From Terriglobia bacterium (lineage in GTDB: Bacteria; Acidobacteriota; Terriglobia; Terriglobales; Acidobacteriaceae), in the NCBI GenBank assembly GCA_020072585.1, contig JAIQGL010000022.1:1-64000 (forward strand): a stretch of DNA of 64,000 nucleotides, read 5' to 3'. A model generated the notes under the pieces. The model had not been told where the DNA came from and searched no databases. It saw only the letters and a program-made list of their open reading frames with translations. Both the position numbers and the translations under genes were made by a program. Positions 12,970 to 49,044 of this stretch are shown here, piece by piece (within the stretch, counting starts at the first letter, position 1; each line of letters starts with the position of its first letter).

Positions 12970-14268
12970 ATGCCTTCCAGCGCCATCGGCCCACTCATAC
13001 TTTTTATCGCGATCCTGCTCACTGCTGCGCACCTGCTCGGTTATCTGTTTGCACGCCTGCGCCAGCCCCGCGTGATTGGAGAGATTCTGGCTGGTTGCAT
13101 CCTGGGACCGTTTGTGCTGGGGAAATGGGCTGCGTACACGCATTTTCTCCAACTTGATGTAGCTGCTCCACAAAAGAAGGCCGCGCTCGATCTCCTCTAC
13201 TATCTCGGCCTGCTGATGCTTATGTTTCTCTCCGGCGCGGAAACCAAGGCTCTCTTCCAGAAACATGAACGCAAACAGATCGGCTGGCTGGCAGCCGTGG
13301 GCACCGCATTGCCGTTTTTCATCATGCTGGCCCTTGGTTCGGTGCTGCCGCTGGGTTGGTTCATGGGCATTAAATCGAACCGCGCTTCCTTGCTGCTGGT
13401 GATGAGCATCGCGGTCGCCGTGACTTCCATTCCGGTCATCTCGCGCATCTTTTTCGATCTTAAAATCCTGCACACACGTTTTGCCCGGCTGGTGCTGGGA
13501 GTCGCCGTGCTGGAAGACATTGTTCTGTGGGCTGTGCTCGCCGTCGCTACCGCTATCGCCGACTCCTCTGGACTCCCGGCCCGAAAGATTGCCCTGCACA
13601 TTGCCATCACTTTGGCTTACTTCATCCTTGGCCTGGTCCTTTTTCCGCGCGCAACGAAACGAATTTCAAAATCAAAGTTCAATCTGCTGGCCATCAACTC
13701 ACCGGTCACGTTTACGCTATTGATCGCTTTTGCGTACGTGGCAGTGGCTGGCCTGCTGGACGTAAACCTGGTCTTCGCCGCATTCCTGGCTGGCTTTGCC
13801 GTCTCGCGCAAGCGTCTGGGTGATGCGCTGGCAACCATCTCCGGCTTCTCCTTCGCGCTTTTTATCCCCGTCTATTTCGCTCTGGTGGGCTACAGCCTGA
13901 TCTTTGGCAAAGCATTCTCCGTGACGATGCTCATAGCGTTCCTTGCCGGAGCATGCGTGCTGAAGCTGCTGGCAGTGGCGCTGGGAGCGCGACTGGCTGG
14001 CTTCCGCGGCCTTGATATCACCAATCTCGCCGTCGCAACCAATGCCCGTGGTGGGCCTGGAATCGTGCTGGCCAGCGTTGCTTATGAAGCCGGCATCATC
14101 AGCGCCGCGTTCTACACTACGCTGGTGATCGTTGCCGTACTCACGTCACAGGCCGCTGGCGCATGGCTGGAATTTGTTTTGCGCAAAGGCTGGCCGCTGC
14201 TCTCGACGGACGTTACGCCTTCTTCAAACACGGCCGTTGTGGAGAAAGCGCCGGAATTGGTGGCTTAG
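12970..14268 (+). CDS. CPA2-family cation:proton antiporter
   Basis: 432 aa, about 12-13 hydrophobic segments. RLRQPRVIGEILAGCILGPF (residues about 30-49) is the conserved first repeat motif of Na+/H+ exchangers of the KefB/GerN type. GVAVLEDIVLWAVLAV carries the paired acidic site in the ion-binding helix (E-D), and ATNARGGPGIVLASVAYEAG is the matching second-repeat motif. The C-terminus stops after the transport domain, with no RCK/TrkA-N regulator, so it resembles GerN/NapA-like exchangers rather than KefC. Probable role: pH and Na+/K+ homeostasis at the inner membrane. Confidence 0.9.
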   Translation: MPSSAIGPLILFIAILLTAAHLLGYLFARLRQPRVIGEILAGCILGPFVLGKWAAYTHFLQLDVAAPQKKAALDLLYYLGLLMLMFLSGAETKALFQKHERKQIGWLAAVGTALPFFIMLALGSVLPLGWFMGIKSNRASLLLVMSIAVAVTSIPVISRIFFDLKILHTRFARLVLGVAVLEDIVLWAVLAVATAIADSSGLPARKIALHIAITLAYFILGLVLFPRATKRISKSKFNLLAINSPVTFTLLIAFAYVAVAGLLDVNLVFAAFLAGFAVSRKRLGDALATISGFSFALFIPVYFALVGYSLIFGKAFSVTMLIAFLAGACVLKLLAVALGARLAGFRGLDITNLAVATNARGGPGIVLASVAYEAGIISAAFYTTLVIVAVLTSQAAGAWLEFVLRKGWPLLSTDVTPSSNTAVVEKAPELVA

Positions 14269-14271
14269 CTT

Positions 14272-14463
14272 TTTTCTGCAATCCGACCCTGAGCCTGTCG
14301 AAGGGAGGGACCCCTATCGCAATCTCGACTCTTTGGGCCGCGAACTAACGCGAAATGAACACGAATCAGGATGATTCATGTTTCGCACGCATTCGCGGCT
14401 AGATACTGTCTACAAACCCTCATAACTATAGGGATCCCTCGCTTCGCTTCGGGACTTCGGAAG
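14272..14463. repeat. Palindromic intergenic element, copy B (with a nested second repeat)
   Basis: Left arm near TTCTGCAATCCGACCC...GGGAGGGACCCCTAT, right arm TAGGGATCCCTCGCTTCGCTTCGGGA at 14,429-14,454. Between the arms is a copy of a second palindromic family (GCCGCGAACTAACGCGAA...TTCGCACGCATTCGCGGC, 14,338-14,400). The right arm is translated as the C-terminal tail and stop codon of the RDD protein on the minus strand. Confidence 0.7.
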
Positions 14464-15567
14464 ATGCTCTGCCTGAGAACTGTGGGGACAAGCCCGCAGA
14501 TGCGTCTGGCTGATCCGATCATGCCAGCCAAGCTGGTCTTCATCCACCAGCGCCCAGGCGTAGCCCAGTCCTATGGAAAAAGCTGAGAGAGCGCTTGCTA
14601 CGGCGCGGCATTGGCGGTCAAACATTGACGTGGCGGTCCCTGCAAAAGTACACAGCTCAAGCTGTGACATGTTCATGCCCGGCGTTGCACGGCGGTAGGT
14701 GAGAAAGATGTATTGAAAAACCAGCCAGAATATTCCGCCCGCAGCCATCAGGCATACCAGCGTCATGCGTGACTGGGGTATCTCTTCGGCCAGCTCCAGA
14801 AACGTCAGGGCAAAAACTCCGGTGGCGATAAAGACAATTCCGGCGTCGGCCAGTCCGGAAAAAAAACGCTGCCCCAGCGGAGCGGGCCGCGGAATCACGT
14901 CAAAATCATTGTCGACCCGGGCTTCCTCCGGCTCCAGCCGGATGTCAGAAAAGCTTGGCAGCAACTCCATCTGCTGGCCTGCAAACGCAACTGCTCTCAC
15001 TGGCACAGGCGGCGTGGACGAATATACATCCTCCTGGACCAGCTCGGCTTCTGCGGCTTCCAGAATTCGAGGCGTCTCGGGAGCTGGATCAGCCAACTCA
15101 AGCTCATCAAGCCTGACCTCTTCCACCGTCGGAACGTATGCGGGCTGGGTCCTGGGAAAACGTATGATCTTGGGCGGCTCCTGCCTGACCTTGCTCGACC
15201 TGACCACGATCTCATGAAAACGCTCTGGCGGCGGAGGCATGGGACTTTCCTGCGGCGCCGCTCCAAAAGAATGGGGCGTATCCATTGAGAAATCCAGTTC
15301 CATTGCATTTGGGTCTACGGGGCGACCGCGCCGCGCGCGATGTTGCTGCACGCGCGAGACTACCTCTTGCCGCCAAGCCAGCTCAGCCGCCGGGTCTTGC
15401 ATTAAAGAACCCTGGGCTGCCGCGCGAAGCCCACCGGAACCAATGGAGCTCTCCGCAGGCGAGAGCGCAGCTTCATCGCCGGCAAAAATTTCATGGTCAA
15501 GAAGCGCCGAGGTGTTCCTTCGACTGTGAACGCAAGGGAACGCCTTACCGCAAACAGGGCAAGTCAT
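14410..15567 (-). CDS. Zinc-ribbon and RDD-domain membrane protein
   Basis: 385 aa. N-terminal CPVCGKAFPCVHSRRN (residues 3-18) gives Cys/His ligands for a small zinc site. A long proline- and acid-rich, low-complexity linker follows (about 30-225). The RDD domain is at about 228-350: LGQRFFSGLADAGIVFIATG, then transmembrane segments around TLVCLMAAGGIFWLVFQYIF, the RRATPGMNMSQLEL motif, and GYAWALVDEDQLGWHDRISQ, which matches the end of RDD proteins. The last 17 residues (LPKSRSEARDPYSYEGL) are encoded by palindromic element B and are unlikely to be ancestral. Divergent from lptD. Confidence 0.85.
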   Translation of the reverse strand: MTCPVCGKAFPCVHSRRNTSALLDHEIFAGDEAALSPAESSIGSGGLRAAAQGSLMQDPAAELAWRQEVVSRVQQHRARRGRPVDPNAMELDFSMDTPHSFGAAPQESPMPPPPERFHEIVVRSSKVRQEPPKIIRFPRTQPAYVPTVEEVRLDELELADPAPETPRILEAAEAELVQEDVYSSTPPVPVRAVAFAGQQMELLPSFSDIRLEPEEARVDNDFDVIPRPAPLGQRFFSGLADAGIVFIATGVFALTFLELAEEIPQSRMTLVCLMAAGGIFWLVFQYIFLTYRRATPGMNMSQLELCTFAGTATSMFDRQCRAVASALSAFSIGLGYAWALVDEDQLGWHDRISQTHLRACPHSSQAEHLPKSRSEARDPYSYEGL

Positions 15568-38602: not shown

Positions 38603-38762
38603 TTTCTGAAATCCCGAACCCGCAACTTTGTCCAGACGCAATCCGGTATGGAGCTTGTGCGGGTGAGGGAACCCTATCCGCTTCATATCTGGTTGGGCAA
38701 GCGATAGGCACTAGAGATTCTTGAAAAGCGTAGGGGTCCCTCGCTACGCTTCGGGATTTTAG
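38603..38762. repeat. Palindromic intergenic element, copy D
   Basis: Left arm TTCTGAAATCCCGAACC (38,603-38,619), then after an insertion of about 44 bp GTGAGGGAACCCTAT (38,663-38,677). Right arm TAGGGGTCCCTCGCTACGCT...GGGATTTTAG (38,731-38,762). The left arm is interrupted, unlike the other copies. It lies between the DUF3052 gene and hslU and ends 15 bp before the hslU start. Confidence 0.75.
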
Positions 38763-48934: not shown

Positions 48935-48983
48935 CATCTTCCCTCAGGGCTTCTCTAGATACAATTTTGTTGTTTGCTCAAAA

Positions 48984-49025
48984 CTGAGTGCCGATTGCTG
49001 AGTGCCGATTGCTGAGCGCCGATTG
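48984..49025. repeat. Three 14-bp tandem repeats before ddl
   Basis: CTGAGTGCCGATTG twice, then CTGAGCGCCGATTG, 20 bp before the ddl start codon. Copy number could affect the leader. Confidence 0.85.
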
Positions 49026-49044
49026 CTGCTTTAAAGTAATCCTG

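Follow-up and report, generated by a model that had tools for sequence, protein, structure and literature searches.

RDD gene and repeat element

The window (the whole stretch of 64,000 nucleotides that was analysed) derives from a bacterium akin to Acidobacteriaceae. An open reading frame (ORF) for an RDD-family membrane protein of 385 aa is located on the minus strand at 14410..15567 (PF06271, residues 228-353, E 1.7e-12) and is faced by a convergent Na/H exchanger ORF on the plus strand (12970..14268). A palindromic element with paired arms, about 197 bases long (~14270-14466), extends across and between the two 3' ends. By repeat matches and arm scoring, the coding-side arm was placed at 14428..14466 (minus strand) and the opposite (distal) arm, of a subtype with CCTGAGCCTGTCGAAGGGAGGGACCCCTAT, at 14270..14317 (plus strand). 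An internal hairpin, GCCGCGAA...TTCGCGGC, was delimited at 14337..14399 using genome matches and folding. It occurs as a stand-alone repeat elsewhere in the genome and was also found at L045, L051, L055 and L121. Copies compared side by side are built alike: TTTTCTGAAATCCCGAGCGNAGCGAGGGANCCCTAT comes first, a variable spacer next, and the reverse complement of TTTTCTGAAATCCCGAGCGNAGCGAGGGANCCCTAT last.

The last 17 codons of the RDD ORF (14413..14463, minus strand) run through the element and, as read from the translation and compared with orthologue ends, spell LPKSRSEARDPYSYEGL, the in-frame translation of one element arm. They are followed by a TAG stop at 14410..14412 (minus strand), inside the spacer between the arms. 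These coordinates match exactly those of the initial annotation, in which the repeat was held to supply both the C-terminus and the stop codon. The tail is indeed read from the repeat. The stop is likewise provided by the element, but its position is in the spacer, immediately internal to the arm, and not in the arm itself. The same annotation had the element inserted before the original stop, which could not be upheld: no displaced RDD stop is visible, because on its far side the element is separated by only ~1 base from the exchanger stop.

Past the WHD motif, the window protein continues as THLRACPHSSQAEHLPKSRSEARDPYSYEGL to its stop, the hydrophilic tail being preceded by the conserved WHDRIxxTxxR end of RDD. 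About 12 tail residues (LPKSRSEARDPY) correspond to the conserved arm, whose conservation drops past CTAT; the residues S-Y-E(-G) come from the weakly conserved inner border of the arm, and the final L and the stop from the spacer. The 10 residues directly before the arm, ACPHSSQAEH, were counted against the explanation preferred below. A plain arm is open in two of three frames, reading LKSRAKRGIPIVTK and EIPSEARDPYSYE, and a variant of the arm that has one more A gives LKSRSEARDPYSYE in one frame, identical to the window tail except for one P.

Copy number and spread of the repeat family

The arm core GGGATCCCTCGCTTCGCTTCGGGA is located at 14431-14454, and a second copy with 2 mismatches at 38733-38756. 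Since 100 shuffles of the window gave 0 matches as against these 2, the arm core is not a product of chance. In the window's own genome (G000), a strict arm pattern had 14 matches and a looser 30-base pattern 45, with 0 matches to the reversed control in both cases; the family is thus real, and its arm is a short palindromic one (20-40 bp) present in many copies. Searches with the whole element returned 49 matches, nearly all of them single arms or the hairpin. Arms formed 24 opposed pairs spaced 20-132 bases, as in REP dimers, and the element has terminal inverted repeats without a gene of its own, as is typical of MITEs. Among 81 genomes searched, the looser pattern was present in 15, including 9/9 of the genus, and was sparse in G134 (4 places), G184 (1) and G200 (1).

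In 78 arm copies, the end adjoining the palindrome was CTAT (ATAG), with the last T in 85%; GTAG was not the tetranucleotide at this position. Genes matching Y1_Tnp (RAYT-like) were found at 11 places in the own genome, and at 8 of these 11 loci no arm was present nearby at <=6 mismatches. On these 8 loci a RAYT as neighbouring mobiliser was rejected. Lacking the GTAG tag and, at the 8 loci, the RAYT neighbour, the family is REP/MITE-like and not a member of the GTAG-REPs.

In L067 (window 38663-38756), L044 and L053, the arms have long additional stems, CCCGAACCCGC...GCGGGTGAGGGA, in which a change on one side is matched on the other. Such matched changes hint that the arm hairpin itself is kept.

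RDD orthologues

The genus comprises 9 genomes here, 7 of which have the RDD protein. For arm scoring, 30 loci (the window and 29 others fetched, out of 189 genomes with a match) were compared with 500 shuffles each; 17 of the 30 served as rows of an RDD tree. The coding-side arm was at 0/500 in two loci, the window (score 63) and G170 (score 44). The distal arm reached this level in five: the window, G106, G170, G050 and G153. In the remaining 25 loci neither arm did.

G170 shares the element of the window, in the equivalent position and with an aligned TAG. Its RDD protein, 67% identical to that of the window, ends in PSAERERYNYDEL and reads THVRASHVPSAERERYNYDEL past the WHD motif. Counting back from the aligned TAG, 30/45 bases are identical between the two, with alignable sequence beyond. 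The event is thus not a strain-level one. The G170 RDD protein recurs in record DAHUXR010000044.1, from an assembly other than that of the window, which makes it improbable that the window was misassembled here.

G134 and G198 lack the element. The RDD protein of G134 ends THLREQSAIQ in the same neighbourhood, with the convergent exchanger retained and only ~46 bases separating the two stops. That of G198 ends THLRKANSK (a stop is reported inside its search match, and it was recovered in two pieces). In these two and in element-free other genera, no more than a few residues separate the stop from the THLR/TYVV motif. The comparison of C-termini proposed by the initial annotation was thus carried out, and it bears out the gain of a new tail: the last 17 residues are absent from all these element-free proteins, which end differently.

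In G106 the coding-side arm is gone (475/500). Its end past the WHD motif, THVRSALSSQPSALSQREIYR, is unrelated, being read from a CAGCACTCAGC-type repeat with the TAA from another palindromic stretch. Repeats of the CAGCACTCAGC / CTGAGTGC type are in frame in the RDD tails of both G106 (L002) and G050 (L004), and similar ones are present in the window at 448-470 and 48977-49027. The RDD proteins of G050 and G153 end in CEEHSEADLPY and FPVQSETDLPY, respectively. In both (L004 and L006) the neighbourhood is rearranged, the frame after RDD being gltX-like and not the exchanger.

That the tail is ancestral protein sequence, resembling the arm by chance or convergence, would fit the likeness of SEADLPY and SETDLPY to SEARDPY, with coding-side arm scores in G050 (85/500) and G153 (25/500) that fall short of significance. 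The scores of the window and G170, unmatched by any shuffle, speak against this, as do the ends of G134, G198 and the other genera close to the THLR/TYVV motif. On these element-free ends an ancestral tail was rejected as very improbable. The same two non-significant scores led us to discard SEADLPY and SETDLPY as proven arm remnants; these SE[AT]DLPY ends may represent a remodelled arm.

The RDD tree unites the window, G106, G170, G050 and G153 in one group (89/86), to which G134 and G198 do not belong. Within it, end branches of 0.06 each make G106 and G170 near sisters.

Other genes ending in arms

The window and 74 further loci of the own genome (75 stretches) were surveyed and yielded 94 distinct arms with 37 arm-ORF overlaps, of which four were kept after Pfam analysis: RDD and three others. 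An ORF at L035 was dropped for want of a Pfam match. The other overlaps, whose coding scores were for the most part low or negative, were left out, which makes 4/94 a minimum, and one obtained from a sample selected for arms.

The three further ORFs with Pfam domains, all from the own genome, encode an aminotransferase ending in SEIPSGARDHYR, an amino-acid permease ending in SEIPKRSEEPL and an ExbD ending in SVTREP, the last with a TAG stop where the arm reads CCCTAG. These arm-derived ends are missing from most orthologues. At 89% identity, the G170 aminotransferase lacks the corresponding tail, and its own end, LAANTRE, is read from the hairpin repeat GCCGCGAA...TTCGCGGC. In G050 the aminotransferase terminates in LERREGSVSRR, for which the arm score was at 0/300, and in G153 an arm (0/300) follows downstream of the aminotransferase stop. 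Neither G170 nor G050 has the permease tail. The permease of G106 also has an arm-derived end, but a different one, SSAAREPYDLKETSGENGPRPK (0/300); among the permease loci, three were cut or interrupted and are uninformative for the end. For ExbD, none of the 11 other rows was at 0/300 at the end, the lowest being 31/300 (G134). Taken with RDD, relatives without the element lack the tail in G134 and G198 (RDD), in the G170 permease (88%) and in the G106 ExbD (77%). The three genes were chosen for having arms and as such yield no rate.

Origin and role of the tail

The observations are best explained by insertion of a repeat element at the RDD 3' end, which would have given the protein a repeat-derived, tolerated tail; from sequence comparison we assign this explanation as a whole a probability of about 0.88. 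A REP-pair or MITE-like element (a variable spacer flanked by two inverted arms, TTTTCTGAAATCCCGAGCGNAGCGAGGGANCCCTAT and its complement) would have landed there in an ancestor within the genus, after the split from G134 and G198. The RDD frame would then run on through one arm to the first stop in the spacer, resulting in a new hydrophilic tail past the conserved WHDRIxxTxxR end. As to the exact step, the element presumably landed either before the RDD stop, or just after it with the stop lost later. That the tail is repeat-derived follows from G134 and G198, which end differently without the element, and from G170 with the same element and aligned TAG.

Judged from the sequences, the insertion is older than the window/G170 split, and it may be ancestral to all five species. 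For a single insertion in all five, the support would come from the distal arm and from a tree fork at no more than 89/86. Independent insertions in the lineages of window/G106/G170 and of G050/G153, by a family favouring gene ends, would account for the different neighbour (the gltX-like reading frame) in G050 and G153; the arms of the aminotransferase and permease genes likewise occur in different species with element-free relatives between them. We nevertheless consider this unlikely, as the RDD tree groups the five together and a single gain takes fewer steps.

The tail itself looks dispensable, probably tolerated rather than needed and lacking function, because the tail of G106, although this species is a close sister to G170, derives from an unrelated repeat. 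The element may have been kept for a role in DNA or RNA, such as a 3'-end hairpin acting on transcript end or stability between the convergent genes, with reading of the arm as a by-product. Folded as RNA, the whole element gave -82.6 kcal/mol (z -5.88), and all five species have retained the distal arm, whereas the coding-side arm is subject to decay or replacement. Neither an intrinsic terminator nor an Rfam family was matched within the element, however: the sole terminator match (14249-14262) lies in the end of the exchanger and one weak Rfam match outside the element, and both identities were discarded. We rate such a role only slightly below an even chance; it is compatible with, and not opposed to, an insertion that gave the tail.

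In a wider and rather doubtful reading, the repeats of the genus would be a standing source of tails, with the RDD tail, the product of one old insertion, remodelled into a kept SE[AT]DLPY coding end in two lineages, tails of sister species swapped in from unrelated repeats, and tail turnover by repeat insertion outpacing domain evolution.

Comparison with known systems

In the passages of PMC3733652 on REP families, REP arms are described as short and palindromic, often in inverted pairs near gene 3' ends, and their termini as often giving TAG stops to flanking ORFs. The GTAG/CGTC-tagged REPs of that source resemble the present family in their short palindromic arms, inverted pairs and location near gene 3' ends. 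They differ in the tetranucleotide adjoining the palindrome, here mostly ATAG and not GTAG, and in the RAYT gene, absent here beside an arm (8 of 11 Y1_Tnp loci). The present family is not named in those passages, and among open-licence papers no report was found on it or on repeat-derived C-termini in Acidobacteria.

Rickettsia palindromic elements are also palindromic repeats read in frame in proteins (PMC2229807, PMC3733652), and in-frame fusions of small repeats have been reviewed (PMC2229807). In the parts of these sources considered, the Rickettsia elements are stressed within proteins, whereas the present arm is at the end and its element supplies the stop.

A further parallel is offered by QMITE1 and QMITE2 of Coxiella burnetii. 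As described in sections of PMC5896051, their 3'-end insertions give new C-terminal residues and a stop, as here, and the functional annotated genes affected were all hit at their 3' ends. The present element has another sequence and is from another phylum, and here one insertion is common to more than one species, with unrelated repeats as the source of other tails in the genus. As far as these accounts go, the supply of C-termini and stops by REP/MITE elements is already in print (PMC3733652, PMC5896051), and the event is of a known kind. The RDD locus adds a case in which a mobile-looking repeat has donated a protein end and relatives free of the element allow a clean comparison, together with a pattern that recurs across genes; judging by the four genes compared, a rate of tail gain may be measurable across the genus.
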